64,000 nucleotides of DNA from positions 558,001-622,000 of the forward strand of contig NZ_BMKA01000002.1 of assembly GCF_014643735.1 (NCBI RefSeq), read 5' to 3'. This document shows, in pieces, positions 6,819 to 60,730 of the stretch (positions are counted from its first letter, which is position 1; each line of letters opens with the position of its first letter). The notes under the pieces are model-generated. The model was not told the origin of the DNA. It saw only the letters and a list, made by a program, of their open reading frames with translations, and searched no databases. This DNA comes from Neptunicoccus cionae (GTDB lineage: Bacteria; Pseudomonadota; Alphaproteobacteria; Rhodobacterales; Rhodobacteraceae). The position numbers and the translations under genes were made by a program.

Positions 6819-6831
6819 GGTTCAGATCTCC

Positions 6832-7032: not shown

Positions 7033-7167
7033 TTCCGTCTCCAGTCTAGAAGTTGGTCGGACACGCGACTCGGCAGCCCTCCGGCCGGACGCGCAGTAGA
7101 AGCTGGCTTTTAGGCGTGGCTCCCCCCTATTGCAAGGGCAAAGATCACCCCACCTCAAAGGTTTTGA

Positions 7168-7389: not shown

Positions 7390-7401
7390 CGTTCGTCGCT
7401 C

Positions 7402-30546: not shown

Positions 30547-33500
30547 CTACTGGCCCGCCACAGTCACGCGGTCCGTGTCCGTTCGCGCCCGAAATTCGGG
30601 GCGATACATATCCTCAACCAAGGCAGCCGGATGGTGAAAATTACCCGGTGACACTGCGCGCACCATATAGGCGAGTTGAAAGGGCGCGCGCCCCGACCAA
30701 TTCACGGCAGCGATAAAACGGTCTGTGCGAAATTCTGCAAAACTTGCATCAGCGTTCGTTTCCAACCATTCCAGTGCCTTAGTTTCACCACCTGCAATCA
30801 GGTTTGGATTGTCAATTTCCAATCCCGCTGGCAGGGGATCATCAACGATCAGGCGGGCCTCCTGATCCCGTAGCGGTGTGATCCGCAAAACGGCCACGAA
30901 ACGGTCGTTCTGCCGGATATGTTCCAACGAGACTGGATCCCCCTGAGGGGTGTAATATGTCCGCTCGATCTTATAGCCATTGCCCCCTGCCGGTTCAGGT
31001 TCAGACGGCACGCCGAACACTGTTACAACCGCAAGTGCATTCCGTGGCCCACTGTTTTGCAACCGGACCCCCGCCTTCAATTCATCGCCAGACAGGCTGC
31101 GCACAAGAGGGTCTTGCATCGCTGCGCCGTTAAGCGAAAAGCCTTTGGCACCTCCGTCTTGCACCAGTGCACGAACTGCCATCAAAGACCACAAATTTTC
31201 CTGCGTGGACTGGCGGGCAACGGGTGATCCGCTGATAGTTTCAGCCAATGCCGCGCGGTCCAATGCGTCGGATTTCGCGTCAATCGCAAGGGTCAGAACG
31301 GCCGCGGCATCCCGCAGATCTGAACCAAAATCAGAGCGATAACCGATGCTTGCCTCTTGCGTTTTCAGGCGCGCTCCGGCGTGGCGGAACATGGCATCCG
31401 CCCTGCTCTGATCGCCATAGGACGCGAGAGCCGACCCGAGTTGCGCTTGTGCCAAAGGGGTCGCAAATGCGTCCGCTCTGGTGTCAGCATAATAGCGCAA
31501 ATCCCCGATCGCAGCATAACCCTCACGGGCAAGTATCATAAGCGCATAGGCAATATCCTCACCGCCCCGTTCGAAATCGGCGGCGTAATTTACGCGGTTG
31601 CGCAGATTGTCGAGCGCCTGTTCAAACGCCCGATCGGGCACCATATGCCCCTGCTTGCGCGCACGACTAAGGAAATCAGTCACATAGCTGTCTAGCCACA
31701 GATCCCCCGATGCAGGACGCCACATTCCAAAGGCTCCGTTGCTGCTCTGATTGCTCAGCACGCGGGCGATGGCCTGTTCAATCCGTTCCGCCACCTGTTG
31801 TTGCCCACCAAGGCCGAGCGCTTCGGAAAGCTGGTCGAAATACAGCAGGGGCATCGCCTTCGAAGTGATCTGTTCAGTACACCCATAGGGGTATCTGTCC
31901 AGTGCCGTCAGCAAGCCTGGAGCGTCGAACCGCGCCAGCGGCCCCACCGCAAGCGTTGCGTGAACTGTGTCAGCGTGCAGTCCGGCCAGCGCGTTACCAT
32001 CCAGCGTCAGCGCGCGATTGGCCTGCAAATCAACGCGGGTTTGCCGCGCAATCGCGGGATCATTCCATTGCACCCCCATAGTCATCGTTTTGCTTAACGT
32101 CTTACCGTCAGGCGTCTTGATCGTGACCTCAATCTCGGGTGTGCCCACCTCCTGCGCCGAGAGCGGAATGTTCAGGCTTACACGCTGTCCCTTCTGCAGC
32201 GTCACCTCCTGATTTAGCGGACCGCCGAGGGCCAATGCTGCACCGCTGTTCAAAACAACTTTGATCGGCCCAGCAGGACCATAAGCATGGTTCAATTCCA
32301 ATCGCGCGCGGCTTAAGTCGCCAGGCGTGAGAAAGCGTGGCGCGTGCAGCGATATCACCACAGGATCACGCACCAGAACGTCCTGTTCCGCATGTCCAAC
32401 ACCGGACTGCGACCATGCTACAGCCATTAATCGCACAGTTCCGTTAAAATCCGGTAAATCGAATCTGTGCCGCACCATTCCATCGGCATCCGCAGTCAAA
32501 ACGCCCGAAAATTGCGCCAGAACAGCTTGGGCCGGTGGCGGGCCTTGCAGCTCGGCCTGCGCCTGATTATCCCCGCCGGATCTCAAACGCCCTGCCGCAC
32601 CGTTTCCTGAAATTAACCGGCCATAAACGTCCCGCAATTCCACGCCCAGTTTGCGTTGACCGAAATAATGATCATCCGGCGACGGCGTTTTAAACCCAGT
32701 AAGGTTCAAAACGCCAAGGTCAACCGCCGCGATGGTAACGTACCCAGCCTCACCTGCCCGCAACCCATCCAGTTTTAATGCTACATCCATCGGTCCACGT
32801 GGATCAGCCCGTGACGGATTCTCAAAACGGGCTTGCAACAGCCTGTCAGCCGGATCAACAGGTGCATAGGCCAGTCCGAGCGCGCGGGACGGCGTGTGCC
32901 CCCCGTCCATCGGCCGCAGTACAGATGCAGCAACATACGCCCCCGCGCCCCAGTCTTCTGTCACATCCAAAACGACATCGGTGGCACCTTTAGCCACCGC
33001 GATTGCGCGGGTTTCAATCATACGATCCGAGAGCACCGACACCTGCGCCACCCCATCAAAACGCGAATTGATGCGAAGTGTGGCCTGCTCTCCGACACTG
33101 TACTTCTCCCGATCCATCGCCACATCGAGAAGATCCGGCGTATCCCCACCATCACCGCTGGCGTACCAGCCTGCATTAAACTGCAACGAACTGGCCGCAT
33201 AAGGCGCGCTTTTGTGAGTCAATTTCAATTCATAGGCGCCCCAAGCCACCCCGGCAGAAATTTCGGCCCCATCTTTTTTCAAAACGTCCAATGTTCCGGC
33301 CGCGACACGCTCTCGTCGTGTGATCGGCTCGTAATTCCATCGGCCATATTGTTGATACCACTGATAGCGTGTGTGCAGGCGGTTCAACTCCCAAGTCACG
33401 GCCTTCATATCGCTCGCCTCGCCATCCGCCGCCACAGCGATAACCTTAAACGCTGCCTCAGTACCTTCGCTAAGGGTGCCTTCAAACAGGGGTTTGATCC

Positions 33501-36012
33501 CGATCATGGCCCGCCCCGGCAGGACGGGTGCGGAAATTCGCCGTTCCACCGGACGACCGGAGCCATCGCGCAGCCGGATGTGCGCGGTCATTTCTAATGG
33601 TTTGGCCACCTCCCCCCCTTGCGGAAGGTTCAGCGTCAGGCTTCGCTTGCCCTCCGAGTTTGTTTGGCCCGCGCCGCTGATGGTCTCATATCGCGTGCTA
33701 AAAGGCTCATCCGTTGAACCAAAAACGAAATCCGGGAACCCTTTCAGACTGCGGGCGGCCGAGAGTTTCACTTCCCCCTCGATATCCAGCCCCGCGCCAA
33801 CAGCGCCAAATAGGTAGCGCGCATCGATGCGTAGTTCGGGGCGATCGGTTACAACGAACGGCCCCTCGCCCAGCGCCAGATCAAAATCAATCCTCTCGGG
33901 GATGAAATCCTCTACCAAAATCCGCTGTTCCAGCAAGGCCGGCGCGGTGCGATCTGTATAAGCCCGCAACTTCCAACTGCCCCGTGCGGCATTCGGGGGA
34001 AGATCAAAGGACGTGACAGCCCCGCCAGCGCCAACTGCACTAGCAAGCTTGCGGCTGTGGCGCACACCGTCAGGGCGGATCAGGTCCAGTGTGATCGGCA
34101 CCCCGTCCAGTGCCTCTGCCGTGTGATCGCGCGCCAGAACCGTGGTGTGAATAACTGCGCCGGGGCGATAGGCCCCGCGATCAGTGGCGAGAAATACGTC
34201 TATCGGCGGGGGAGCAGGACGACCTTCGACACCGCGATCCGACAAATCATATTCCGCCGCCGCCTGATCGAGAAAAGCATAATCCCCGTCCGACGTTTCC
34301 ACCGTCACCAGTGCGGGGACTGCCCCGCCGGTACCAAGCGCAAACCCACTGTCAAAACGTGCGTGGCCTGCTTTGTCAGTCTGTGTTTCAGCCAGAACCA
34401 CATTCGCCTTGCTCACCAAGCGGACCGTTGCCCCCCCAATCGGTTGGGCGCTGGCGAGCGAGCGGGAAAAAACGTGCAGCCCGTCGTTGCCTTTAAGCGA
34501 GGAGATTCCAATATCCGACACAATAAACCACTGCGCGGCAATAGTATTCTCGTCATCGCGCGCCACGCCCGGCACCCGCGCAGTCATTGTGTAGACACCC
34601 GGTTCAAAATCGCTGAGCGCATCACCGATGGGCAGGGCCGTGGTGACCTCACGGTTAAGTTCCGGGGTTATTTCCGCAGATCCGCTCCAGACTTCCTGCC
34701 CTAGATCATTGGCAACGAAACCCAGATCCCAGCGAGAAATTGGCTTGGAGAACAGGCCCTCTTGTAAACTGCGCAACAGGTTCCGGTCCCCCACGCGGTA
34801 GATTTTAATGTCGACTTTTTCTAGATTAACGGTCGTCAGAGGAACCGTAGCACCTTCCCGTTTTGGCAACAGATAACTGCGCCCCGCGAAGCGCGCGACG
34901 GGATCGCGGTCTTGCACGTAAATGTTCAGTTCTACAGTTTTCCGCAAAACCTCTCCGTTTGCTGCGGGCAGGCCTTGCCGGAAATCGATGCGGTGGGTTT
35001 TACCGTGGCTCACACCTTCGATGCACAGTTGGCGTCCTTCAACCTCGGCCACCAAACCTTGCGTATCAGAGCGGATAAAATCTATGTATTCCACGGTGCC
35101 TTTCACCAATTCTTCGGAGAATTCCGCACAAATACGTGGTGCAGCGGCGTTGTGATCAACCGTGTGGTTTCGGATTCGGAAACCGTAAAGGTCAATTGCG
35201 CGATCAAGAGCTTCTTGCACATCTTTACGCGGCGCGATGGACTGGGCGAGACGCAACACAGGGATCATCCTTTGGCCCTGTTTATCTTCCTCCAGCCCTA
35301 TGGCGAGTTCTTGCAACGCATTGACCTGCTGGGCGTCCGCGCGCGCGCGCAGGAAACCGTTGATAGCACCTGCCGTTCGGAGCTCACGCACAAGTTTGCG
35401 TTGATTGCCGGACGTCGGTTTGGCCAGATTCGCAAGCCGCGCAGACTCCGTCCAAGCTTCGGCGCGGTCCGCATCATTCGCAGCAGCAAGGGAGAGTTCC
35501 AAGGCACGAACCAAACGGCCCTCCGCCGCAACTTTGCGGGACTCTGTTAGGAGCGCTTCATAGGACCAGCCGTTTGTCGGATACCGAGTCCCGTTACGCT
35601 CTGCTATATTCTTTGCGCTTTTCAGGTAGGATTCCGGAAGGAACCCGATTTTCTGCGCCTGTCGATCGGCAAATTCCAGATCGTCGGACGTAATTTCATG
35701 TACTTCGGCAGAGGTAGCACCTTCAAAGGCGCTGCGCTCTCCGACAGCGGATTTGGGGAAACAGGCCGAAGAGGTCTGGTTGTACGTGAAGGCTTTGCAA
35801 GTTGGATCAGCCAGACAGGCCGCAACGCAATCTTTGAATGTCACGTCGAAGATATTGCGAATGTCCGAGCCGTATAAATCGGTTTCTTCCGACAGTTCGA
35901 TCCGCCGTTCGGGAATGGCGTGATCTACGGTTTGGGCAGGCACCGCGAGTGGTGCAAGAAGACCCGAAAGAAACGCTCCGAACCAAAGTCTTTTAGCCTT
36001 TTGAAATATCAT
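30547..36012 (-). CDS. PAN-domain alpha-2-macroglobulin family protein
   Basis: A 1821-residue periplasmic protease-trap protein. A signal peptide (residues 1-26, ending AVPAQ) has no lipobox Cys, unlike the E. coli lipoprotein YfhM. Residues about 35-105 form a PAN/apple-like module (YGSDIRNIFDVTFKDCVAAC, with FTYNQTSSACFPKS). MG and bait-type domains follow, then the thioester motif GCTEQ with Cys1378 and the alpha-alpha toroid after it. Bacterial alpha-2-macroglobulins capture attacking proteases through the bait region and the thioester. pbpC follows without a gap, as expected for the partnership. The N-terminal PAN module is the unusual part. Confidence 0.92.
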   Translation of the reverse strand: MIFQKAKRLWFGAFLSGLLAPLAVPAQTVDHAIPERRIELSEETDLYGSDIRNIFDVTFKDCVAACLADPTCKAFTYNQTSSACFPKSAVGERSAFEGATSAEVHEITSDDLEFADRQAQKIGFLPESYLKSAKNIAERNGTRYPTNGWSYEALLTESRKVAAEGRLVRALELSLAAANDADRAEAWTESARLANLAKPTSGNQRKLVRELRTAGAINGFLRARADAQQVNALQELAIGLEEDKQGQRMIPVLRLAQSIAPRKDVQEALDRAIDLYGFRIRNHTVDHNAAAPRICAEFSEELVKGTVEYIDFIRSDTQGLVAEVEGRQLCIEGVSHGKTHRIDFRQGLPAANGEVLRKTVELNIYVQDRDPVARFAGRSYLLPKREGATVPLTTVNLEKVDIKIYRVGDRNLLRSLQEGLFSKPISRWDLGFVANDLGQEVWSGSAEITPELNREVTTALPIGDALSDFEPGVYTMTARVPGVARDDENTIAAQWFIVSDIGISSLKGNDGLHVFSRSLASAQPIGGATVRLVSKANVVLAETQTDKAGHARFDSGFALGTGGAVPALVTVETSDGDYAFLDQAAAEYDLSDRGVEGRPAPPPIDVFLATDRGAYRPGAVIHTTVLARDHTAEALDGVPITLDLIRPDGVRHSRKLASAVGAGGAVTSFDLPPNAARGSWKLRAYTDRTAPALLEQRILVEDFIPERIDFDLALGEGPFVVTDRPELRIDARYLFGAVGAGLDIEGEVKLSAARSLKGFPDFVFGSTDEPFSTRYETISGAGQTNSEGKRSLTLNLPQGGEVAKPLEMTAHIRLRDGSGRPVERRISAPVLPGRAMIGIKPLFEGTLSEGTEAAFKVIAVAADGEASDMKAVTWELNRLHTRYQWYQQYGRWNYEPITRRERVAAGTLDVLKKDGAEISAGVAWGAYELKLTHKSAPYAASSLQFNAGWYASGDGGDTPDLLDVAMDREKYSVGEQATLRINSRFDGVAQVSVLSDRMIETRAIAVAKGATDVVLDVTEDWGAGAYVAASVLRPMDGGHTPSRALGLAYAPVDPADRLLQARFENPSRADPRGPMDVALKLDGLRAGEAGYVTIAAVDLGVLNLTGFKTPSPDDHYFGQRKLGVELRDVYGRLISGNGAAGRLRSGGDNQAQAELQGPPPAQAVLAQFSGVLTADADGMVRHRFDLPDFNGTVRLMAVAWSQSGVGHAEQDVLVRDPVVISLHAPRFLTPGDLSRARLELNHAYGPAGPIKVVLNSGAALALGGPLNQEVTLQKGQRVSLNIPLSAQEVGTPEIEVTIKTPDGKTLSKTMTMGVQWNDPAIARQTRVDLQANRALTLDGNALAGLHADTVHATLAVGPLARFDAPGLLTALDRYPYGCTEQITSKAMPLLYFDQLSEALGLGGQQQVAERIEQAIARVLSNQSSNGAFGMWRPASGDLWLDSYVTDFLSRARKQGHMVPDRAFEQALDNLRNRVNYAADFERGGEDIAYALMILAREGYAAIGDLRYYADTRADAFATPLAQAQLGSALASYGDQSRADAMFRHAGARLKTQEASIGYRSDFGSDLRDAAAVLTLAIDAKSDALDRAALAETISGSPVARQSTQENLWSLMAVRALVQDGGAKGFSLNGAAMQDPLVRSLSGDELKAGVRLQNSGPRNALAVVTVFGVPSEPEPAGGNGYKIERTYYTPQGDPVSLEHIRQNDRFVAVLRITPLRDQEARLIVDDPLPAGLEIDNPNLIAGGETKALEWLETNADASFAEFRTDRFIAAVNWSGRAPFQLAYMVRAVSPGNFHHPAALVEDMYRPEFRARTDTDRVTVAGQ

Positions 36013-45480: not shown

Positions 45481-46704
45481 TCAGGCAAGAACTTGGGAAA
45501 TCAGCAGAATGCCAGCACCCGAAAACAGCAAGCCGGCCAGAATACCCATAGCCGGTGTATTCATTTGTCCGAACAAAAAGGAACGTGGGCGCGCAGCTTC
45601 TGGCGCAGGCGTCTCGGTCAAATCATCAGCGCGCATTTGCTTGGGGACTTCGATCACGCGCACCCGCCGTTCTTGGGCAGATTTGCGCGGACGGCGCGCG
45701 GGGATATTGATGTTTTCGCCCGCCTTTACCGCGACTTGGGCGAGAGATGTCATCTCGGCATCCATTTCTAATGTAATATCGATCTGCTCCGGCCCAACCT
45801 CTAGGTTTTCGGCCACAGAGACCTCTTCCAGTTCGAACTCGGTTTCAACCTCGGGCATGGCCACTTTTATATCGTCGCCTTGAATGTCCGCTTCCAATTC
45901 CGCTTCACCGTCAAAGGCCGCCGGAATGATTTTGAAACGGGTGTCATCGGCTTCAGGCGTTTCCAACTTAAAGTGATCCGGCGTTTCGTCCTTTGGTTCC
46001 GCTGCCGCGGCTGGGATCACCTCTTCCATAACGGTGCGGAAGATGCCGATGTCAAACGGCACATCCTCGGCTTCATTGGGTGCGGCGGGGTCTTCGGCTT
46101 CGCAGGCCTTTCCTTCATCCTCAGCAATGACGAACTGCTGAAGATTGAGAATACCTTCGTCAATCGCGCTGGAATAATCTGCGTCGTCCCCGTTTTCGGC
46201 CTCAAGTGCTGCCTCTTCGTCTGCAACGTCGTCCAGACCGGCATCAAAGCCTTCGTCCTGGTCGTCGCCTTCATGCACAGCAATCGTGTCATTCATCCAG
46301 TGCAACACAACAAACGCCCCGTCCGGCGCAATACCTTCGTCATAGTCTTTGTCCACGGATGGCTGCGCGAGCACATCATCCGTGTCGAGCTCTGCGCTGC
46401 TGTAGGTCTTTTCAATCCCGTCAGTCACGCGCACCAGAAACACTGCATGGGCCTCCTTGTCGCCAAACAAAGTACCTTTTTCCTGCAGTTCTTCCTCACG
46501 AAATTGAAAACCGGCTGTGCGAAATATCCCGCGCACCCGCGCATCCGCGGAACGCAGTGCCGCAACCGTAGTCGGGCTGCGAAAGCGTGCGACCTTGTTC
46601 TCCATCTTGCGGTCCAGATCCGTCAGCATTTCTTGCATAACAGGGCCAGATGGCGCTTTACCAGAGTTGATCGTAAAAACATCAAATTCGTAATTTAGTG
46701 CCAT
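45481..46704 (-). CDS. Acidic tail-anchored protein of unknown function
   Basis: A 407-residue protein that I do not recognise. Residues 1-150 look like a folded domain (MALNYEFDVFTINSGKAPSG, YSSAELDTDDVLAQPSVDKD). The long middle, about 155-330, is very rich in Glu and Asp and probably disordered. A basic stretch (PARRPRKSAQERRVRVIE) precedes a single C-terminal hydrophobic segment (GILAGLLFSGAGILLISQVL), so the protein is likely held to the membrane by its C-terminus. The start at ATG 46704 is chosen because AGGA precedes it; a seven-residue longer form exists. A terminator follows. Confidence 0.7.
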   Translation of the reverse strand: MALNYEFDVFTINSGKAPSGPVMQEMLTDLDRKMENKVARFRSPTTVAALRSADARVRGIFRTAGFQFREEELQEKGTLFGDKEAHAVFLVRVTDGIEKTYSSAELDTDDVLAQPSVDKDYDEGIAPDGAFVVLHWMNDTIAVHEGDDQDEGFDAGLDDVADEEAALEAENGDDADYSSAIDEGILNLQQFVIAEDEGKACEAEDPAAPNEAEDVPFDIGIFRTVMEEVIPAAAAEPKDETPDHFKLETPEADDTRFKIIPAAFDGEAELEADIQGDDIKVAMPEVETEFELEEVSVAENLEVGPEQIDITLEMDAEMTSLAQVAVKAGENINIPARRPRKSAQERRVRVIEVPKQMRADDLTETPAPEAARPRSFLFGQMNTPAMGILAGLLFSGAGILLISQVLA

Positions 46705-46872
46705 GCCTGTGTTCCTCATGCTCAAATACGCTACTTAACTTGTGATGAAGCTACCCTCACAATTGGTCAGAACTTTGTCTCAAATTTGATTTTGTAGGGA
46801 CCATCGTCAGACCACACAGCAAAGATCCTTTGACCTGCTTGCTTTTTGCCCCCGCGCTGTTACACCTGAAGC

Positions 46873-50382: not shown

Positions 50383-51123
50383 ATGACACATAAACGGCCC
50401 GTTATCGGCATCCTGACCGAAGGGCGCGGTGATCTGAAAGTGGACACATCCCACTATGACGATCATTACACCTGCCCCGCTGACTACGTTGACGCCGTGC
50501 GCCGCGCTGGTGGTGTGGCGGTATTGCTTCCCCCCGGAGAACCCCATGTCGCCGACTGGCTGCCTGCGGTAGACGGGATCATCTTTAGCGGCGGCGTGGA
50601 CGTGCATCCCGATCACTACAACGGCGATACGGATAATCCGAACGTGCAACAAACCTCGGCTGAACGGGATGAAACCGAACGCGCCCTTCTTAAACTCTTG
50701 CGCAGCGAAAGCTCCAAACCGACCCTCTTTATCTGTCGTGGAATGCAAATTCTGAACGTGGCGCTTGGCGGCGATCTGCACCAGCACATTCCCGACCTCC
50801 ACCCCGGCGACATCCACCGCAACGCGCAAGGCGGCTGGACCCGTCAACCGGTGTCGGTGGATGCGGGCTCCAAACTGGCAGCAGTCATGGACAGCACAGA
50901 AGTCGATACCTTCTCCGGCCACCACCAAGCCATCAACCGTATCGCACCTGAATTGCGCGCGGTGGCTCATGCGCCGGATGGCATTATCGAGGCGGTAGAA
51001 GATCCAAACCACCCGTTTTTCGTGGCGGTGCAATGGCACCCCGAACTTTCTGCGGCGACTGATGCAAGCCAGCAAAACCTGTTCGACGCCCTAATCAGCG
51101 CCGCCGCCAAAGCAGCAGGTTAA
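50383..51123 (+). CDS. Class I glutamine amidotransferase-like hydrolase, PuuD/peptidase C26 type
   Basis: A 246-residue gamma-glutamyl hydrolase of the peptidase C26 group that includes PuuD (gamma-glutamyl-GABA hydrolase). The nucleophile is Cys118 in FICRGMQILNVALGG, the catalytic dyad His219-Glu221 is in VAVQWHPE, and GIIFSGGVDVHP is a family motif. It would release an amine or amino acid from a gamma-glutamyl amide. It is downstream of thiBPQ with a separate candidate promoter, and about 2.6 kb from a glutamine-synthetase-like cluster that could make its substrate. Confidence 0.88.
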   Translation: MTHKRPVIGILTEGRGDLKVDTSHYDDHYTCPADYVDAVRRAGGVAVLLPPGEPHVADWLPAVDGIIFSGGVDVHPDHYNGDTDNPNVQQTSAERDETERALLKLLRSESSKPTLFICRGMQILNVALGGDLHQHIPDLHPGDIHRNAQGGWTRQPVSVDAGSKLAAVMDSTEVDTFSGHHQAINRIAPELRAVAHAPDGIIEAVEDPNHPFFVAVQWHPELSAATDASQQNLFDALISAAAKAAG

Positions 51124-51135
51124 AACCGCAAACTC

Positions 51136-51190
51136 TTTTTGGGCCAAATATCCTCAGGGGGTCCGGGGGCGGAATGCCCCCGCTGTTTTT
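51136..51190. terminator. Terminator with dispersed element, copy C
   Basis: TTTTTGGGCCAAATATCC (51136-51153) resembles copy B, and the hairpin GGGGGC-GGAAT-GCCCCC (51165-51181) with a following T run (51186-51190) resembles a transcription terminator for the hydrolase. The convergent SMR gene ends five bases further on. Confidence 0.6.
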
Positions 51191-51194
51191 GTAG

Positions 51195-51524
51195 TCAGTG
51201 AGGAACCGAAGACGAAAACAGGTTGATCACCAGAACACCACAAACGATTAGGGAAATTCCGACAAATCCCGCAGTGTCGATCCGGTCCCCGAACAGCAAC
51301 GCGCTTGCAACCGTCACAATAGCCACACCCGCACCGGACCAAACCGCATAGGCCAGCCCCACCGGAAAGCTGCGCAAAACGATGGCGAGGAAATAGAAAG
51401 AGATCCCGTAGCCCACCACGGTCAGCCCGACGAAGTGCATCTTGCTCAGCCCTTCCGAGGCTTTCAGGGACAGCGTCCCAATCACCTCGGCCCCGATCGC
51501 AAGCAACAGATAAACCCACGTCAT
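51195..51524 (-). CDS. SMR-family small multidrug transporter
   Basis: A 109-residue, four-TM proton-driven exporter. Glu13 in LLLAIGAEVIGTLSLKASEG is the conserved membrane carboxylate that binds protons and cationic substrates. The core is close to EmrE/SugE-type proteins; which of the two cannot be decided from the sequence alone. GKAxxAxR-like SFPVGLAYAVWSGAG is another SMR motif. Its start overlaps the trmL stop by 4 bases. Confidence 0.9.
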   Translation of the reverse strand: MTWVYLLLAIGAEVIGTLSLKASEGLSKMHFVGLTVVGYGISFYFLAIVLRSFPVGLAYAVWSGAGVAIVTVASALLFGDRIDTAGFVGISLIVCGVLVINLFSSSVPH

Positions 51525-51976
51525 TGCGCATTCCTTTTATTCATTTGTCTTAAAGCTTCACTTACCGCCATTCCCGCGCTCATCGCGACGTTCAAGCTGC
51601 GCGCCTGCCCGGTCATCGGCAGCTTCACCCGTGCCTGCGCAAAGCTGTGGACCTCTTCCGGCACGCCCGCACTCTCCCGTCCCATCAGGATGGTATCGCC
51701 CTGTTGGAACGAAAACTCCCACAAGGATTGCTCCGCCCGCGTGGTCATCAGCACGATTCGCCCGCTACGCGGCGCCGCTGCAAAATCCTGCCAACTGTTG
51801 TGGCGGGTCAGATCGGCAATATCCGCATAATCCATCGCCGAACGTTTCAGCGCTTTAATCGACAGGGGAAAACCGCAAGGTTCGATAATATCCAGCGGCA
51901 CGCCGAAACAGGCCGACAGGCGGATCATGGCGCCCAGATTCGGGGCGATGTCGGGTTGATAGGCGGCAAGTCTCAT
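51521..51976 (-). CDS. trmL: tRNA (cytidine(34)-2'-O)-methyltransferase
   Basis: A 151-residue SPOUT-fold methyltransferase (TrmL) that modifies the wobble base of certain leucine tRNAs. PDIAPNLGAMIRLSACFG near the N-terminus and DTILMGRESAGVPEEVHS followed by SLNVAMSAGMAVSEALRQ form the knotted SAM-binding region. Length is typical. It overlaps the SMR gene by 4 bases, so they are coupled although unrelated in function. Confidence 0.92.
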   Translation of the reverse strand: MRLAAYQPDIAPNLGAMIRLSACFGVPLDIIEPCGFPLSIKALKRSAMDYADIADLTRHNSWQDFAAAPRSGRIVLMTTRAEQSLWEFSFQQGDTILMGRESAGVPEEVHSFAQARVKLPMTGQARSLNVAMSAGMAVSEALRQMNKRNAQ

Positions 51977-52034
51977 GGCTCTGCGATAGGGGAAATCGCA
52001 GGCGAAGGAAATAGCGGGATTGGTGCAGCGGGGG

Positions 52035-52907
52035 TCAGGTGAACTTGCGGAACAGTTTGGTCTGGTCGAACATATCCTCCAGCCGCTCTGTCCGGTCCTT
52101 GGTCTGCGCCCAGTTCTGGTCCTGAATCGCAGAAATCAGCGTCTCCACCAGCAACAGCGTTGTCGCTGCTGAATCCCAAGCCGAGGGCACCACAATCCGG
52201 CTGCTGAAACAGAAATCCGCCAGATGATGCACCGGAGAGCGCCACTGATCCGTGAACAGAATGATCTTCGCCCCTTTCGCATGAGCCATCTCCGCCAGCT
52301 TCAGCGTGTTGTTTTCGTAGCGGCGGTTGTCAAAGATCACAAAGACATCGCCCTCCGACACATCCAGCAGGTAATGGGGCCATGCGTTTGACGTGGATTG
52401 AATATGCGTCACCGAAGCGCGGATCACCTGAGCGTGCAGGAACAGATACTCCGCCATTGTATGGGTAATCCGCCCGCCGACGATGTAAAGTGCGCGTTCC
52501 GGATCACCGATCAGCGCACAGGCTGCATCAAAGTCATCAGGATCAATCTGGCCGAGCGTGTGGCGGATATTATCAATCACCGCATCCGTGAACCGGTTCA
52601 GCACATGGCCCGACGGCGCGCCCTCCGCCCACGTGTCATGCTTGGCAATCGGGTTCTTCGCCTTTGATTTCAGCTCCTCGCGCAGTTCGGTCTGGAACTC
52701 AGGATAGCCCTTAAACCCCAGCTTCTGCACCATCCGCGCCACGGTCGGTGCCGAGACATTCGCGTCTTTAGCCAATGTTGCCAGCGGCCCAAGTCCCGAC
52801 GCGGGATAGTTCTCCAGAATCGAATGAGCCAACTGTCGTTCGGCACGGGTCAAACGGTCCAGCTCTCGCTGGATACGATCTGAAATGGTGGGCTGGTTCT
52901 CCGACAT
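52035..52907 (-). CDS. RpiR/MurR-family transcriptional regulator
   Basis: A 290-residue regulator with an N-terminal helix-turn-helix (LATLAKDANVSAPTVARMVQKLGFKGYPEFQ) and a C-terminal SIS domain (about residues 130-250, VGGRITHTMAEYLFLHAQ). The SIS domain normally binds a phosphosugar; here the divergent catabolic cluster does not look like sugar metabolism, so its ligand is unclear. The frame extends 24 codons upstream, but those residues are unlike the family, so ATG 52907 is used. It is divergent from the amidohydrolase-TRAP cluster and is its likely regulator. Confidence 0.88.
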   Translation of the reverse strand: MSENQPTISDRIQRELDRLTRAERQLAHSILENYPASGLGPLATLAKDANVSAPTVARMVQKLGFKGYPEFQTELREELKSKAKNPIAKHDTWAEGAPSGHVLNRFTDAVIDNIRHTLGQIDPDDFDAACALIGDPERALYIVGGRITHTMAEYLFLHAQVIRASVTHIQSTSNAWPHYLLDVSEGDVFVIFDNRRYENNTLKLAEMAHAKGAKIILFTDQWRSPVHHLADFCFSSRIVVPSAWDSAATTLLLVETLISAIQDQNWAQTKDRTERLEDMFDQTKLFRKFT

Positions 52908-52928
52908 AGGACCCCGTTTGACGATTAA

Positions 52929-52978
52929 TATTACAACGTTACGACTTCTGTTCTTTTTGTAACACAATTCTGTTGACA
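52929..52978 (+). promoter_or_regulatory. Promoter/operator region between the RpiR gene and the TRAP cluster
   Basis: The divergent gap is 120 bases. It contains an AACGTT palindrome within TTACAACGTTACG (52931-52943) and TGTAACA-N6-TGTTGACA (52959-52978?), whose TTGACA (52973-52978) could be a -35 for the rightward cluster. The -10 is not clear. Operator identity is inferred from position. Confidence 0.3.
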
Positions 52979-53027
52979 TATCACCCGATGCGCAAGAAGT
53001 TTAGCGTGAACAGGGAAAATAGTTTGA

Positions 53028-53795
53028 ATGGCTGCCACCAAAGCAGAAGACGTTGTAGAGGTTCACACCCCCGCGGGCGCATCGCCTGTCGTGCTGGTGT
53101 GTGAACACGCCTCTTCTTTTATACCGCCACACCTGCATGACCTCGGGCTCGCCGAAGCTGACCGGCTAAGCCATGCGGCTTGGGATCCGGGCGCGCTGGG
53201 CGTGGCAAGACACATGTCAGAGCGGCTGAATGCAAAGCTGGTAGCAAGCAAGGTTTCCCGTCTGGTTTATGATTGCAACCGCCCACCCAGCGCACCGGAC
53301 GCCATGCCCGCCCGCAGCGAGTTGGTTGTCGTGCCGGGCAATGGAGAACTGGATGATGCGGACCGTAGGGCGCGGGCTGACAGTTACTATCACCCTTTCC
53401 GCGAATTGCTGGCGGATAGTGTGGCTGCAACGGCGGCAACAGGTGTTACGCCGGTTCTCGTCACGGTTCACAGCTTTACGCCAATCTATCACGGCAATCC
53501 CCGCGCAGTAGAAATCGGCATCCTGCATGACAGCGACACACGGCTGGCCGATGGAATGCTGGCGGCGGCAAAGGGCAACCCCTTAGACGTGCAGCGCAAT
53601 GAACCCTATGGACCGGAACACGGCGTCACCCACACGTTGAAAGAACACGGCATCGCCAACGGCTATGCCAATGTGATGCTGGAAATCCGCAACGACCTGA
53701 TCGTAACGCAGCAACAGCAGCAGGATATGGGCGATACCATCTGCGACTGGCTCGTGGCTTCGCTCGATAGGTTGGATCAGGAAGGGCAGGCATGA
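53028..53795 (+). CDS. N-formylglutamate amidohydrolase-family protein (paralogue 2)
   Basis: A 255-residue FGase-family amidohydrolase: VLVCEHASSFIPP (metal-ligand region), SRLVYDCNRP, VTVHSFTPIYHGNPR and the C-terminal VMLEIRNDLI. It is about the same length as paralogue 1 at 8999 and differs in many details (for example EHASS against DHAAN). Its stop overlaps the TRAP small-permease start by 4 bases, so it is translated as part of the TRAP cluster and probably hydrolyses an N-acyl or gamma-glutamyl-type intermediate of the cluster's pathway. Formylglutamate hydrolysis remains possible. Confidence 0.87.
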   Translation: MAATKAEDVVEVHTPAGASPVVLVCEHASSFIPPHLHDLGLAEADRLSHAAWDPGALGVARHMSERLNAKLVASKVSRLVYDCNRPPSAPDAMPARSELVVVPGNGELDDADRRARADSYYHPFRELLADSVAATAATGVTPVLVTVHSFTPIYHGNPRAVEIGILHDSDTRLADGMLAAAKGNPLDVQRNEPYGPEHGVTHTLKEHGIANGYANVMLEIRNDLIVTQQQQQDMGDTICDWLVASLDRLDQEGQA

Positions 53796-54364
53796 TGCGC
53801 GGCTTAGCTTTTGGATATATTCGCGCCATTGATGCTGTGAACTACCGCATGGGCCGCATTGTCATGTACGGTATCTTCGTGCTGATGGGTATTTTGCTGT
53901 GGTCTTCAATCAGCAAGACGTTCTTCCTGCCATCGCTCTGGACGCTGGAATTGGCCCAGTTCTGCATGGTCGCTTACTACATTCTGGGCGGGCCTTATTC
54001 GATCCAGCTGGGATCAAACGTGCGGATGGATTTGCTTTACGGCGAATGGTCCCTGCGGCGCAAAGCATGGACCGATTTGATTACCGTCCTGTTCCTGATT
54101 TTCTACCTCGGCGTGATGATCTATGGCGCGGTCAGTTCCACGGCCTATTCCCTTGGCTATTGGGGCAGCGAGCCGTTCTCCTTCCTTGCGGGCCTTGCCA
54201 CCGGAGCCGAGGAAGTGGGCCGCGCAGAGCGATCCTCTTCGGCGTGGCGCCCCTATCTCTGGCCGATCAAATCCATCATGATCCTCGGCCTAACACTCAT
54301 GTTACTGCAATGCATCTCCGAGCTGTTGAAAGACGTGCTGCGGCTTAAAGGCGAAACCATCTGA
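53792..54364 (+). CDS. TRAP transporter small permease (DctQ)
   Basis: A 190-residue four-TM protein of the DctQ family. Hydrophobic segments are at about residues 24-40, 55-75, 95-117 and 150-175; QLGSNVRMDLLYGEWS is the family's conserved cytoplasmic loop. It forms a complex with the large permease, whose gene shares one base with this stop. The 4-base overlap with the amidohydrolase and the 1-base overlap with dctM mean a tightly coupled operon. Confidence 0.92.
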   Translation: MMRGLAFGYIRAIDAVNYRMGRIVMYGIFVLMGILLWSSISKTFFLPSLWTLELAQFCMVAYYILGGPYSIQLGSNVRMDLLYGEWSLRRKAWTDLITVLFLIFYLGVMIYGAVSSTAYSLGYWGSEPFSFLAGLATGAEEVGRAERSSSAWRPYLWPIKSIMILGLTLMLLQCISELLKDVLRLKGETI

Positions 54365-55692
54365 TGTCCTATGAATTAATCGCCACTTTGATGTTTTCTT
54401 CGATGATGCTGATGCTGTTGACTGGTCAGCGGGTGTTCGGGGCTATCGGCTTTATCGCTGTTGTCGCGGCCCTGTTGCTGTGGGGCGACAAGGGCGGATT
54501 TGACATCGGGTTCTCGGCTGCAATGAAGCTGATGAAATGGTATCCGCTGCTGACCCTGCCGATGTTCATTTTCATGGGCTATGTACTGTCGGAGTCCAAG
54601 ATCGCCGATGATCTTTATAAGATGTTCCACGTCTGGATGGGCGGCCTGCGGGGTGGGCTGGCGATCGGGACCATCGGGTTGATGGTGTTGATTTCCGCCA
54701 TGAACGGCCTGTCTGTGGCTGGGATGGCCATTGGTTCCACCATTGCCCTGCCCGAGTTGTTAAAGCGGGGGTATGACAAAAGGATGGTCACAGGGGTCAT
54801 ACAAGCGGGGTCGTCCCTTGGCATCCTTGTTCCCCCTTCAGTGGTGCTGGTGCTTTATGCGATGATCGCACGTCAACCTGTCGGCCAGTTGTGGTTGGCC
54901 GGAGTGGTGCCGGGTCTGATGATGGCAGGGATGTTCATCGCCTATATCGTGATCCGTTGTCGGATGAATCCGGTACTGGGTCCGGTGCTGGACCCGTCGG
55001 AACGGGACATGCCCCGCGCCGAAAAGATGCGTTTGCTGCGTGCAGGTATCCTGCCGATTGTGATTTTTGCTGTGATGATGGTGCCTTTCGTGAACGGCTG
55101 GACGTCTTTGGTGGAAAGCTCTGCCATTGGCGCGCTGGCAGCCTTTGTGGCGGCGGTACTGAAAGGCCGCATGACCCGCGAAGTGTTTGAAAACTCCGTA
55201 CGTAACACTCTTGGCATTACCTGTATGTTCATGTGGATCATTCTCGCCGCCCTCGCCTTTGGCGCGGTGTTCGACGGGCTGGGCGCGGTGAAAGCGATTG
55301 AGGGTCTGTTCACCGAACGCCTCAACCTGTCGCCTTGGATGATCCTGATCCTGATGCAGCTGAGCTTTATCCTGATGGGGACGTTCCTTGACGATACGGC
55401 CATGCTGGTGATTGTTGCACCCTTGTATGTGCCATTGGTCGGTGCGCTTGGGTTTGATCTTATCTGGTATGGTATCCTTTATACGATCACGACCCAGATT
55501 GCCTATATGACACCGCCGTTCGGGTATAATCTGTTCCTGATGCGCGCGATGGCACCGCCGGAAATCAGTTTGCGGGACATCTATGCCTCAATCACGCCCT
55601 TTGTGCTGGTCATGGTGCTGGCGCTGGTGCTGGTCATGGTGTTCCCTGGCATCGCCACATGGCTGCCCGACTATATTTACAACAAACCCTAG
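54364..55692 (+). CDS. TRAP transporter large permease (DctM)
   Basis: A 442-residue, about 12-TM sodium-coupled permease of the DctM/TRAP family. FIFMGYVLSESKIADDLYKM is the usual N-terminal signature, and SLGILVPPSVVLVLYAMIA is the substrate-channel helix pair. It works with the small permease and the binding protein encoded next. Substrates of TRAP systems are mostly organic acids (carboxylates, sulphonates, some amino acids); the specific one is unknown. Confidence 0.93.
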   Translation: MSYELIATLMFSSMMLMLLTGQRVFGAIGFIAVVAALLLWGDKGGFDIGFSAAMKLMKWYPLLTLPMFIFMGYVLSESKIADDLYKMFHVWMGGLRGGLAIGTIGLMVLISAMNGLSVAGMAIGSTIALPELLKRGYDKRMVTGVIQAGSSLGILVPPSVVLVLYAMIARQPVGQLWLAGVVPGLMMAGMFIAYIVIRCRMNPVLGPVLDPSERDMPRAEKMRLLRAGILPIVIFAVMMVPFVNGWTSLVESSAIGALAAFVAAVLKGRMTREVFENSVRNTLGITCMFMWIILAALAFGAVFDGLGAVKAIEGLFTERLNLSPWMILILMQLSFILMGTFLDDTAMLVIVAPLYVPLVGALGFDLIWYGILYTITTQIAYMTPPFGYNLFLMRAMAPPEISLRDIYASITPFVLVMVLALVLVMVFPGIATWLPDYIYNKP

Positions 55693-55734
55693 AAGCCGCA
55701 CCAACCGGCCCAACCCAAAACAAGGAGAGAGACT

Positions 55735-56766
55735 ATGACAACCAGACGTAAGTTTATTCAAGGCGCTGCCGTGGCTCCGGCTGCTGCTCTTGCAACGCCG
55801 GCACTGGCGCAAAGCACCATCAAATGGCGGATGCAGACCTATGCGGGTGCGGCGCTGGCGGAACACGTGATCGTTCCCGCCGTTGAAATGTTCAACAAGA
55901 TCGCAGGCGACCGCATGCAGATCGAACTGTTTTTTGCCGACCAACTGGTCCCAACCGGAGAGCTGTTTCAGGCAATGCAGCGCGGCACAATCGACGCCGT
56001 ACAATCCGATGACGACTCTATGGCCTCGCCAACCGATGTAACCGTTTTCGGCGGCTACTTCCCGTTTGCCAGCCGCTATTCGCTCGACGTGCCGGTGCTG
56101 TTCAACCAATACGGCCTTAACGAAATCTGGGATGAAGAGTATTCCAAAGTCGGCGTGAAACACATCTCTGCCGGTGCATGGGATCCGTGCCACTTTGCCA
56201 CCAAAGACCCGATCCGCAGCCTTGAAGATCTCAAAGGCAAGCGCATCTTTACCTTCCCGACAGCGGGCCGCTTTATGTCCCAGTTTGGCGTGGTTCCAGT
56301 GAACCTGCCATGGGAAGACATCGAGGTTGCCGTGCAAACAGGCGAACTCGACGGGATCGCTTGGTCCGGCATCACCGAGGATTACACCGTAGGCTGGGCC
56401 GATGTGACCAACTACTTCCTGACCAACAACATCTCCGGCGCATGGGCTGGCTCCTTCTTTGCCAATATGGAGCGTTGGAACGAGCTGCCAGAAGACCTGC
56501 AAGCGCTGTTCCGTGTGTGCTGTGACCAATCCCACTACTATCGTCAGTGGTGGTACTGGGGCGGTGAAGCCGACCTGCGCGTCAACGGTCCAAAGATGGA
56601 ACTGACATCCATTCCAGACGACGAATGGGCCACAGTGGAAGCCGCAGCGCAGGATTTCTGGGAAGAAATCGCAGCCGAATCCGAAACCAAACGGCGCGTG
56701 GTGGACATCATCAAGAAGTACAACGCCGACATGGTCAAAGCCGGTCGTCCGTACCGCTACACCTGA
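55735..56766 (+). CDS. TRAP transporter substrate-binding protein (DctP)
   Basis: A 343-residue periplasmic binding protein. The N-terminus TTRRKFIQGAAVAPAAAL carries a twin-arginine (RRKFIQG) Tat signal, cleaved near ALAQ. The mature domain contains DLKGKRIFTFPTAGRFMSQFGV and IAWSGITEDYTVGWADVTN, and is of the TAXI-unrelated DctP type. Tat export implies folding in the cytoplasm, perhaps around a cofactor or ligand. AAGGAGAGAGACT precedes the ATG. An 11-bp hairpin separates it from the downstream glutamine-synthetase-like gene. Confidence 0.92.
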   Translation: MTTRRKFIQGAAVAPAAALATPALAQSTIKWRMQTYAGAALAEHVIVPAVEMFNKIAGDRMQIELFFADQLVPTGELFQAMQRGTIDAVQSDDDSMASPTDVTVFGGYFPFASRYSLDVPVLFNQYGLNEIWDEEYSKVGVKHISAGAWDPCHFATKDPIRSLEDLKGKRIFTFPTAGRFMSQFGVVPVNLPWEDIEVAVQTGELDGIAWSGITEDYTVGWADVTNYFLTNNISGAWAGSFFANMERWNELPEDLQALFRVCCDQSHYYRQWWYWGGEADLRVNGPKMELTSIPDDEWATVEAAAQDFWEEIAAESETKRRVVDIIKKYNADMVKAGRPYRYT

Positions 56767-56788
56767 AGCTGAACTTTAAACTGACATT

Positions 56789-56815
56789 CCAAGGGCGGCG
56801 TTCTGCCGCCCTTGG
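56789..56815 (+). other. Intergenic hairpin between dctP and the glutamine-synthetase-like gene
   Basis: CCAAGGGCGGC (56789-56799) and GCCGCCCTTGG (56805-56815) form a perfect 11-bp stem with a 5-base loop and no T tail. It could stabilise the 3' end of the dctP message so that the binding protein is made in excess, or act as a partial terminator. Confidence 0.6.
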
Positions 56816-56838
56816 TCCGATTAGAAAGTGGAACCACC

Positions 56839-58203
56839 ATGCCTGCCAATCTTAGTTTTGATGATCTGAAGTCCCGCGTGTCCGAGGGATCAATCGACAC
56901 CGTTCTTGTCTGTTTTGTGGATATGCAAGGCCGCCTGATGGGCAAGCGCTTCCACGGGGTGAACTTTGTAGAAAACTCCTACAAGGAAACCCACTGCTGT
57001 AATTACCTGCTGGCCACCGATCTTGAGATGGCGACCCCTGACGGCTATGCCTCCACCAGTTGGGAAACCGGCTATGGCGATTATGTCATGAAGCCCGATC
57101 TGGACACCATCCGCCCTGTGCCGTGGCTGGAAGGCACCGCAATGGTGCTGTGCGATATTCTGGATCACCACACCCACGAACCGATCCCCCATTCCCCCCG
57201 CGCCATGCTGAAAAAGCAGATCGCCCGCCTGAAAGAGCTGGGCTTTGACGCGATGATGGCTACCGAGCTGGAGTTCTTCCTGTTCGAGAAGTCCCTTGAT
57301 GAACTGCGCAAGGACGGCTTCCGCGATCTGCAACCGATCAGCGGCTACAACGAAGATTACCACATCTTCCAGACCACCAAGGAAGAGGGCATCATGCGCC
57401 CGATCCGCAACCACCTTTACGCGGCTGGTCTGCCAATTGAAAATTCTAAAGGCGAAGCGGAATCCGGTCAGGAAGAGCTGAACATCCGCTATTCCGCCGC
57501 GCTTGATTGCGCCGATTACCATTCCATCGCCAAACACGCGATTAAAGAAATCGCATGGCAGAACGGCCACGCGGCGTCTTTCCTTCCGAAATGGCACAAG
57601 GATCGGGTGGGATCGTCGTCCCATGTCCACCAATCCCTGTGGAAAGACGGCGAAGCAGCGTTTTTTGACAAGGACCGCGATCTGGGCATGTCCGAAATGA
57701 TGGGCCACTATATGGCCGGTCTGATCGCCTATGCGCCGGATTACACCTATTTCCTTGCGCCTTATGTGAACAGCTACAAACGCTTTTCCAAAGGCACTTT
57801 CGCACCGACCAAAACCGTCTGGTCTGTCGACAACCGCACCGCAGGTTTCCGCCTGTGCGGCGATGGCACCAAAGGCATCCGCGTGGAATGTCGTATCGGC
57901 GGGTCTGATCTGAACCCCTACCTCGCCCAAGCCGCGATGCTGGCCGCTGGGATCAAGGGGATCGAGGAAAAGATGGAACTCGCTGCGCCGACACGCGGCG
58001 ATGTGTACGAAGACGCAAAAGCAGGGGACATCCCGCAAACCCTGCGCGATGCAACCGAACTGCTGCGCAACTCAAAATTCCTGCGCGAGGTGATGGGCGA
58101 CGATGTGATCGACCATTACACCCGCGCTGCCGAATGGGAACAAGAAGAATTCGACCGTGTTGTAACCGATTGGGAAATCGCACGGGGCTTTGAAAGGGCT
58201 TAA
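56839..58203 (+). CDS. Glutamine-synthetase-family ligase (probable gamma-glutamyl-amine synthetase)
   Basis: A 454-residue protein with the glutamine synthetase fold. FVDMQGRLMGKRFHG at the N-terminus, TELEFFLFE (metal Glu), ESGQEELNIRYSAALD, and KWHKDRVGSSSHVHQSLW (ATP/ammonium region) are family motifs. Sequence style is of the PuuA/GlnA-like and type III-like group, which includes enzymes that gamma-glutamylate amines rather than ammonia. It lacks the adenylylation-type loop of classic GlnA. The neighbouring ALDH, iron-ADH and hydrolase genes suggest a catabolic rather than assimilatory role. ATG 56839 is used; the open frame begins 9 codons earlier. Confidence 0.86.
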   Translation: MPANLSFDDLKSRVSEGSIDTVLVCFVDMQGRLMGKRFHGVNFVENSYKETHCCNYLLATDLEMATPDGYASTSWETGYGDYVMKPDLDTIRPVPWLEGTAMVLCDILDHHTHEPIPHSPRAMLKKQIARLKELGFDAMMATELEFFLFEKSLDELRKDGFRDLQPISGYNEDYHIFQTTKEEGIMRPIRNHLYAAGLPIENSKGEAESGQEELNIRYSAALDCADYHSIAKHAIKEIAWQNGHAASFLPKWHKDRVGSSSHVHQSLWKDGEAAFFDKDRDLGMSEMMGHYMAGLIAYAPDYTYFLAPYVNSYKRFSKGTFAPTKTVWSVDNRTAGFRLCGDGTKGIRVECRIGGSDLNPYLAQAAMLAAGIKGIEEKMELAAPTRGDVYEDAKAGDIPQTLRDATELLRNSKFLREVMGDDVIDHYTRAAEWEQEEFDRVVTDWEIARGFERA

Positions 58204-58206
58204 TCC

Positions 58207-59580
58207 ATGACGATCAAATGTATCTCCCCCATTGACGGGTCGGTCTATGCCGAACGTCCAACCCTGACCCGCGCCGAGGCGGATGCTGCAGTGAAGCGGG
58301 CCAAGGCTGCACAAGCTGACTGGGCTGCCAAACCGCTTGCCGACCGGATCGCACTGGTTGAAGCAGGTGTTGCCGCTGTTGGTGCGATGAACGACGAAAT
58401 CGTTCCCGAAATCGCGTGGCAAATGGGCCGTCCTGTACGCTACGGCGGCGAATTCGGTGGTTTCAACGAACGTGCCAGCTATATGGCTAGCATCGCGACT
58501 GAGGCGCTCGCTCCGATCGAAGTGGAAGACTCCGACGCTTTCCGTCGCGTGATCAAACGGGTACCACACGGGCTGGTTCTGATCGTTGCGCCGTGGAACT
58601 ATCCCTATATGACTGCGATCAACACTGTTGCCCCTGCCCTGATTGCTGGCAATGCAGTGATGCTGAAACACGCCTCGCAAACCCCGCTGGTGGGCGAGCG
58701 TATGGCGAAAGCTTTCCATTCGGTTGGCATCCCCGAAGATGTGTTCCAGAATGTGTTTCTGGATCACGGCACGACTTCTGACCTGATTTCAGACCGCGCA
58801 TTTGGCTTTGTGAACTTCACAGGCTCTGTCGGGGGCGGCAAGGCGATGGAACAGGCGGCGGCTGGCACGTTCACCGGCATCGGGCTGGAACTGGGTGGCA
58901 AAGACCCGGGCTATGTGATGGAAGACGCCAATCTGGATGCCGCCGTGGATACGCTTATTGACGGCGCGATGTTCAATTCGGGCCAGTGCTGCTGCGGAAT
59001 TGAACGGATTTATGTGCATGAATCCCTGTTCGATGCCTTTGTGGAAAAAGCCGTGGCGATTGTTAAGGGCTACAAGCTGGGCAATCCGCTGGACGAAGCA
59101 ACCACAATCGGTCCGATGGCCCATGTCCGTTTCGCGGATGAGGTCCGCGCACAGACCGCCGAAGCCGTTGCTGCTGGTGCCAAGGCGCATATCGACCCTG
59201 CGGATTTCCCCGAGGACGGCGGCGCCTATCTGATGCCCCAAATCCTGACCGATGTGACCCACGACATGCGCGTGATGCGTGAAGAAAGCTTTGGTCCGGT
59301 TGTCGGCATCATGTCCGTTAAGGACGATGAAGAGGCGATTGCCCTGATGAATGACAGCGATTTCGGCCTGACTGCATCCTTGTGGACACAGGACGCCGAC
59401 CGCGCCGAGGCGATTGCCGACCGGATCGAAACAGGCACCGTGTTTATGAACCGCGCCGACTACCTTGATCCCGGCTTGTGCTGGACCGGCTGCAAGGATA
59501 CAGGGCGCGGCGGTGGCCTGTCCGTGATCGGCTATCACAACCTCACCCGACCCAAATCCTACCACATGAAGAAGGCTTGA
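58207..59580 (+). CDS. NAD(P)-dependent aldehyde dehydrogenase
   Basis: A 457-residue ALDH. The catalytic nucleophile is Cys262 in FNSGQCCCG, the general base Glu228 in GLELGGKDPGYV, and the NAD region PWNYPYMTAINTVAPALIAGNA. Length is shorter than classic betaine aldehyde dehydrogenases but normal for the succinate-semialdehyde/aminobutyraldehyde type. It starts 3 bases after the glutamine-synthetase-like stop and is followed by an iron-ADH 4 bases later. A gamma-glutamyl-amino-aldehyde is a likely substrate. Confidence 0.92.
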   Translation: MTIKCISPIDGSVYAERPTLTRAEADAAVKRAKAAQADWAAKPLADRIALVEAGVAAVGAMNDEIVPEIAWQMGRPVRYGGEFGGFNERASYMASIATEALAPIEVEDSDAFRRVIKRVPHGLVLIVAPWNYPYMTAINTVAPALIAGNAVMLKHASQTPLVGERMAKAFHSVGIPEDVFQNVFLDHGTTSDLISDRAFGFVNFTGSVGGGKAMEQAAAGTFTGIGLELGGKDPGYVMEDANLDAAVDTLIDGAMFNSGQCCCGIERIYVHESLFDAFVEKAVAIVKGYKLGNPLDEATTIGPMAHVRFADEVRAQTAEAVAAGAKAHIDPADFPEDGGAYLMPQILTDVTHDMRVMREESFGPVVGIMSVKDDEEAIALMNDSDFGLTASLWTQDADRAEAIADRIETGTVFMNRADYLDPGLCWTGCKDTGRGGGLSVIGYHNLTRPKSYHMKKA

Positions 59581-59584
59581 TCCG

Positions 59585-60730
59585 ATGTCTTTGACTGCAA
59601 ACTGGTCCTATCCGACCGCAATCCGTTTCGGCGCTGGCCGAATCTCCGAACTCGCCGATGCTTGTGCCGCTGCGGGCATCAAAAAACCGCTACTGGTGAC
59701 AGACAAAGGCCTGTCCTACCTGCCGATCACCCAGTCTACGCTGGATCTGATGGACGCCGCAGGTCTTGGCCGCGCGATGTTCTCGGATGTGGACCCGAAT
59801 CCGACTGAAGTGAACGCCGAAGCCGGTATCAAAATGTTCCGCGAAGGTGGACATGACGGTGTGATCGCTTTTGGCGGCGGCTCCGGCCTTGATCTGGGCA
59901 AACTCGTTGCTTTCATGTCCGGCCAGTCCCGCCCGATCTGGGATTTTGAAGATATTGGGGATTGGTGGACCCGCGCCGATCCGAATGGAATCGCCCCGAT
60001 TGTGGCGGTTCCGACCACCGCAGGCACCGGTTCCGAAGTGGGCCGTGCGTCTGTGATCACTAACAGCGAAACCCACGAGAAGAAAATCATCTTCCATCCA
60101 AAGTTCCTGCCCGAAGTTGTGATCTGCGATCCCGAACTGACCGTTGGCATGCCACCGATGATCACCGCAGGCACTGGCATGGACGCTTTTGCCCACTGCC
60201 TAGAGGCATTCTGTTCCCCCCATTACCACCCCATGTCACAAGGCATGGCGCTGGAAGGGATGCGGCTGGTCAAAGAATACCTGCCCCGCGCCTTTAATGA
60301 CGGCACCGATATTGAGGCCCGCGCCCATATGATGTCTGCCGCTGCGATGGGGGCCACTGCCTTTCAAAAGGGTCTTGGCGCGATCCATGCCATGTCCCAT
60401 CCGATTGGCGCGGTGCACCACACCCACCACGGCACCACCAATGCTGTTGTGATGCAGGCTGTTCTGAAGCTGAACCGCCCCGAAGTAGAAGAGCGTCTGA
60501 CCCAAGCGGCCGCGTATCTGGGCATTAAAGGCGGTTTTGACGGATTTTACGATTTCGTCGGCGCGCTGAATGCTTCGCTCGGGATTCCGGCAAACCTGAC
60601 AGAACTGGGCGTGACAGATCCCGACGTCGACGCCTTGGTCGCATCTGCCCTGACCGACCCGAGCTGTGGCGGCAATCCGGTTGAGCTGACCAAAGAAAAC
60701 GTTACGGCGCTTTTTAACGCCTGCCTGTAA
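59585..60730 (+). CDS. Iron-containing alcohol dehydrogenase
   Basis: A 381-residue group III dehydrogenase. GGGSGLDLGKLVAFM is the NAD-binding segment, TAGTGSEVGRASVIT the conserved NAD/metal region, and the metal-ligand stretches are GTGMDAFAHCLEAF and HAMSHPIGAVHHTHHGTTNAVV. It ends the RpiR-regulated cluster. Such enzymes reduce or oxidise alcohols and aldehydes (for example 1,3-propanediol, lactaldehyde, gamma-hydroxybutyrate). With the ALDH it could oxidise an alcohol to an acid in two steps. Confidence 0.92.
   Translation: MSLTANWSYPTAIRFGAGRISELADACAAAGIKKPLLVTDKGLSYLPITQSTLDLMDAAGLGRAMFSDVDPNPTEVNAEAGIKMFREGGHDGVIAFGGGSGLDLGKLVAFMSGQSRPIWDFEDIGDWWTRADPNGIAPIVAVPTTAGTGSEVGRASVITNSETHEKKIIFHPKFLPEVVICDPELTVGMPPMITAGTGMDAFAHCLEAFCSPHYHPMSQGMALEGMRLVKEYLPRAFNDGTDIEARAHMMSAAAMGATAFQKGLGAIHAMSHPIGAVHHTHHGTTNAVVMQAVLKLNRPEVEERLTQAAAYLGIKGGFDGFYDFVGALNASLGIPANLTELGVTDPDVDALVASALTDPSCGGNPVELTKENVTALFNACL

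Follow-up and report, generated by a model that had tools for sequence, protein, structure and literature searches.

The closest described counterpart of the locus reported here is an operon of Phaeobacter sp. MED193, in which MED193_10021-10056 encode an RpiR-family regulator, gamma-glutamylglycine amidohydrolase (GGAH), the tripartite ATP-independent periplasmic (TRAP) transporter proteins EtoV, EtoW and EtoX, ethanolamine gamma-glutamylase (ETAGA), gamma-glutamylacetylaldehydeamide dehydrogenase (GAADDH) and gamma-glutamylethanolamide dehydrogenase (GETADH) (PMC10132767). The same source reports that the EtoX of this strain binds ethanolamine with a dissociation constant of 7.9 uM and does not bind phosphorylethanolamine, phosphocholine or glycerol phosphates, that five of the eight operon proteins are raised on phosphorylethanolamine (its Table 2), and that etoX is carried by about 5-10% of ocean bacteria (PMC10132767). 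Here we describe a run of eight genes in a stretch of 64,000 nucleotides of Neptunicoccus cionae (contig NZ_BMKA01000002.1, positions 558,001 to 622,000; the whole stretch is called the window, and all coordinates refer to it). We conclude, with a probability of roughly 0.94, that this run is an ethanolamine-utilisation operon of the EtoX/gamma-glutamylation type. The original prediction, made from the letters of the window, had treated such a pathway as unrecognised; it has in fact been published, both for MED193 (PMC10132767) and for Chromohalobacter salexigens (as cited in PMC10132767, PMC6529630 and PMC4646407), and the window holds another copy of a known operon.

Families were assigned to the window proteins with Pfam and NCBIfam models, and solved relatives were taken from PDB matches. 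With the ligase of the run as bait, the best 80 of at least 515 confirmed relatives were kept as loci (numbered with L) for all counts out of 80; a gene was counted as present in a locus when its best match reached at least 33% identity, and a locus is referred to as well flanked when it includes no less than 6 kb before the ligase gene and 3 kb after it (62 loci). The run consists of the following genes:

52035..52979, minus strand: RpiR-family regulator (Pfam HTH_6 and SIS), counterpart of MED193_10021, divergent in 56 of 56 complete loci
53028..53795, plus strand: FGase-family amidohydrolase, putative counterpart of GGAH (PF05013, 148.5 bits; PDB 2odf, Atu2144, 268 bits)
53792..54364, plus strand: DctQ, TRAP small permease (EtoV; PF04290), overlapping the amidohydrolase gene by 4 bases
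54364..55692, plus strand: DctM, TRAP large permease (EtoW; PF06808), overlapping dctQ by 1 base
55735..56766, plus strand: DctP with a Tat signal, by homology an ethanolamine-binding protein (EtoX; PDB 4uab, 263 of 318 aligned residues identical)
56839..58203, plus strand (first annotated as 56812..58203): ligase of the glutamine synthetase (GS) fold, putative counterpart of ETAGA (PF00120, 324.5 bits)
58207..59580, plus strand: aldehyde dehydrogenase (ALDH; PF00171), putative counterpart of GAADDH, 3 bases after the ligase gene
59585..60730, plus strand: iron-containing alcohol dehydrogenase (ADH; PF00465 and PF25137), putative counterpart of GETADH, 4 bases after the ALDH gene

The open reading frame list and the family models agree with the original prediction on every position, family, overlap and gap of the run (52035-60730).

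All eight genes are present in 56 of the 80 loci, and in each of these 56 the order and the strands are those of the window; among the well-flanked loci the set is complete in 50 of 62, and two of the exceptions show a single loss, of the iron-containing ADH in L014 and of the ALDH in L033. A search for conserved clusters of this gene order had been proposed in the original prediction; the conservation of the cluster is far beyond chance. It is the operon that is conserved and not its neighbourhood, since thiB, thiP, the PuuD-like gene, trmL and the genes for the Rieske protein, cytochrome b and cytochrome c1 of the window have no match at E 1e-10 within the flanking DNA examined in the 80 loci, and thiQ has ABC-ATPase matches only, below 50% identity, in 24 loci. 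When DctP was used as bait against 149 genomes of one family, a match was found in 87 genomes, and among the best 30 loci, which were kept, the ligase adjoins DctP in 27; the exceptions are L092, L108 and L100, the last of which is cut by a contig end.

PDB 5dm3, a protein that we take to come from C. salexigens, shares 326 of 453 aligned positions with the ligase (72% identity, 775 bits). A second close solved relative is 11zs (597 bits), and the remaining 36 PDB matches reach at most 189 bits. Among the matches listed in the genome collection, the ten best relatives, at 85-88% identity, bear names of the Rhodobacteraceae or the Roseobacter group, which by itself would place the window very probably in that group. 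A search of plasmids found relatives in 688 records, the best being 76% identical.

The binding protein points to the substrate. DctP matches PDB 4uab with 637 bits and 82.7% identity, and the second-best solved structure reaches 71 bits. The 4UAB structure is that of Csal_0678 with ethanolamine bound, in which the acidic Glu220 holds the ligand (PMC12410723); the segment ITEDYTVGWA is the same in the window DctP and in 4uab, and its E (chain index 217) probably corresponds to Glu220. The original prediction had urged caution on the ground that TRAP transporters usually take acids, and ethanolamine has indeed been called a surprising TRAP ligand owing to its positive charge (PMC5812351). For this DctP the caution is answered, because the protein has no carboxylate-binding Arg: Phe172 aligns opposite an Arg of 4yzz that would be the Arg-147 equivalent, the residue giving TRAP binding proteins their carboxylate specificity. 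Csal_0678, which also lacks this residue, binds ethanolamine, and Phe is its commonest substitute (PMC4646407). In the operons of this layout among the 80 loci the EtoX-type DctP proteins fall into two classes, with 44 matches of at least 72% identity and 21 of 62-65% (65 in total).

We propose a series of linked steps for the window, each modelled on its counterparts elsewhere. EtoX would bind ethanolamine and the TRAP permease EtoVW would import it. The GS-type ligase would then join ethanolamine to glutamate at the expense of ATP, giving gamma-glutamylethanolamide, whose alcohol group the iron-containing ADH would oxidise to the aldehyde and the ALDH further to gamma-glutamylglycine. The FGase-family enzyme would cut gamma-glutamylglycine into glycine and glutamate, and RpiR would regulate the operon. 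The enzyme steps are assigned by orthology, and transport and regulation are likewise expected to follow the known system. The core idea of the original prediction, a GS-type ligase acting on an amino alcohol followed by oxidation by an iron-containing ADH and an ALDH and release by an amidohydrolase, agrees with the published pathway, and ethanolamine was on its list of substrates.

The following points weigh against this assignment. The enzyme steps are derived from orthology. The pathway is called demonstrated for C. salexigens and Agrobacterium tumefaciens in PMC10132767, and that of C. salexigens is given as an in silico prediction in PMC6529630. Lastly, 10 of the 62 well-flanked loci have no TRAP genes, and five of these ten also have no adjacent ALDH and FGase genes, so the ligase occurs also without this transporter. 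It is improbable, although conceivable, that ethanolamine is joined by other small amino alcohols as substrates of the operon, or of its variants with a DctP of 62-65% identity or without TRAP genes. Still less probable is that the same chemistry has another small amino alcohol, such as aminopropanol or serinol, as its main substrate; the ligase and the dehydrogenases could conceivably tolerate related amino alcohols, and the second DctP class among the relatives (21 of the 65 DctP matches) leaves some room for this, but the window DctP groups with the ethanolamine binder 4UAB (83%) and shows no change in the segment presumed to contain the acidic residue for the ligand. The least credible of the alternatives is that the ligase stands here by chance, as a common glutamine synthetase using ammonia or as a ligase for methylamine. 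It does give matches to general models for glutamate-ammonia ligase, although under the cut-offs of 429 (GlnA, 252 bits) and 470 (242 bits), and 5dm3 and 11zs both carry no label beyond that of glutamine synthetase; against this, it is far closer to these two proteins than to the glutamate-methylamine ligase 9qur (152 bits), and its place in the operon is kept in 56 of the 80 loci.

A further alternative concerns the enzyme that releases the amino acid, a role for which the original prediction had also considered a PuuD-like hydrolase encoded before the run. The genes concerned are as follows:

50383..51123, plus strand, as the run: PuuD-like gene (family match to Peptidase_C26)
51195-51524, minus strand: SMR-type gene, between the PuuD-like gene and the run
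51521-51976, minus strand: TrmL-like gene, between the PuuD-like gene and the run

We consider it very unlikely that this hydrolase is the amide-cutting enzyme of the pathway. The protein belongs to Peptidase_C26 and weakly resembles gamma-glutamyl-GABA hydrolase, scoring 95 bits where the cut-off is 266, but the operon carries an FGase of its own, for which 67 of the 80 loci have a match. No relative of the PuuD-like gene is found at E 1e-10 in the flanks examined of the 80 loci (in 69 of the 80 the upstream DNA is long enough to reveal it at the distance seen in the window), and three opposite-strand genes, the SMR-type, TrmL-like and RpiR genes, intervene; for these two reasons the PuuD-like gene is not part of the pathway. 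It begins 71 bases after thiQ and is followed by a terminator-like hairpin at 51164-51182, in a scan that gave 13 such sites overall against a shuffle mean of 11.5. A Puu-type assignment of the run as a whole does not fit either: on the model for gamma-glutamylputrescine synthetase the ligase reaches 202 bits against a cut-off of 650, the Pfam matches of the run proteins include no amine oxidase, and the flanks examined of the 80 loci are free of PuuD-like relatives.

We also considered the start codons of the run and its candidate control elements, of which two are listed:

52949..52978, no strand assigned: candidate control region, with a palindrome TGTTCTTTTTGTAACA at 52949-52964, picked by eye, and a -35-like TTGACA at 52973-52978
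56789..56815, plus strand: strong RNA hairpin between dctP and the ligase gene

The TTGACA is a well-conserved -35-like element, as 59 of the 64 intergenic regions compared between the divergent genes (the window and 63 loci) contain it, against a shuffle mean of 5.4 of 64, these being related and not independent sequences. A consensus promoter scan reported no full promoter in the divergent intergenic region of the window, nor did it report the TTGACA site. Because the conserved TTGACA overlaps the longer start of the regulator gene, RpiR probably starts at M25, at about 52907. A palindromic operator upstream of the operon is plausible but weakly supported: with a HexR-like operator pattern, 23 of the 64 regions gave a score reached by at most 10% of 50 shuffles, and the best score of the window was reached by 68%. 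The gap between dctP and the ligase gene (56767-56838) has a folding energy of -27.7 kcal/mol (z -3.64), a stability that none of 200 shuffles reached. An unbroken stem of at least 8 pairs is present in this gap in 61 of the 63 relatives folded (the shuffles covered the window), the exceptions being L037 and L039; the count leaves out L002 and L004, which have DctP, on account of the length of their gap. In these two loci it is 526 bases long, against less than 400 in the other 63 dctP loci. The hairpin may help to set the ratio of the binding protein and transporter to the enzymes. ATG 56839 is the most likely start of the ligase gene, in preference to TTG 56812, since the TTG sits within the strong hairpin and a start codon stands at the residue of ATG 56839 in 68 of the 80 relatives; counting against this start, 29 of the 80 relative alignments continue upstream of ligase residue 8.

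The ten well-flanked loci without TRAP genes are L010, L023, L024, L027, L038, L046, L048, L057, L061 and L070, with weak DctM matches in L057 (26%) and L070 (32%). Five of them, L010, L023, L027, L038 and L070, have a ligase homologue of 75-85% identity with an adjacent iron-containing ADH and are without adjacent ALDH, FGase, RpiR and EtoVWX-type TRAP genes; they are a reduced two-gene form. L046, also without EtoVWX-type TRAP genes, carries at 6444-8011 a DeoR/GlpR-like regulator, below the model cut-offs, before the FGase and ligase genes, at the usual place of RpiR. In L024 (3508-7946) a GpxB-type transporter and a HAD-IIA hydrolase precede the ligase, ALDH and ADH in place of the TRAP genes. 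This arrangement, taken as a PhnD-type transporter with a HAD hydrolase, was considered as an import route for phosphoethanolamine and the idea was dropped, the binding protein being a relative of GpxB (PDB 9lf9, 492 bits), which binds glycerol-1/3-phosphate. Relatives of this binding protein occur in 79 of 295 genomes; in 20 of these neighbourhoods (mostly best matches, 9-15 kb each) the ligase, ALDH or ADH was found in none and a HAD gene in 17.

Elsewhere in the window, at 28498-36012, a PBP1C-like gene (transglycosylase, transpeptidase and BiPBP_C) adjoins a bacterial alpha-2-macroglobulin gene with PAN-domain matches near the N-terminus of its product. At 45481-46725 on the minus strand, an open frame of 414 amino acids matches none of the Pfam or NCBIfam models at E 0.001 and overlaps an opposite-strand frame of 272 amino acids.

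Ethanolamine derives from phosphatidylethanolamine, and the window adds one more likely user of it. The main value of the present assignment lies in the correct annotation of the TRAP, GS, ALDH and ADH genes, which the family models used name just generically.

Compared with the Puu route for putrescine (PuuA/PuuB/PuuC/PuuD), the locus shares the logic of glutamylation, oxidation and hydrolysis and a related ligase, but has an iron-containing ADH for the amine oxidase and an FGase for PuuD, and its ligase lies far below the PuuA-type cut-off. The GlnA4 route of Streptomyces coelicolor (SCO1611-1615) has the same proposed chemistry, through gamma-glutamylethanolamide, gamma-glutamylacetaldehyde and gamma-glutamylglycine to an FGase, and GlnA4 is named there gamma-glutamylethanolamide synthetase (PMC6529630); it is actinobacterial, and the part of that account available describes no TRAP transporter. 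C. salexigens is a gammaproteobacterium, unlike the organism of the window, and the likeness rests on proteins and families: the window DctP is 83% identical to Csal_0678 (PDB 4UAB), and the ethanolamine enzymes listed for C. salexigens (PF00120, PF00465, PF00171 and PF05013; PMC9397018, Table 2) are of the same four families as those of the window. The closest likeness is to the MED193 operon, for which a comparison by locus tags and families revealed no difference in gene content: it comprises the same eight gene families in the order of the window, gene for gene, with RpiR first.

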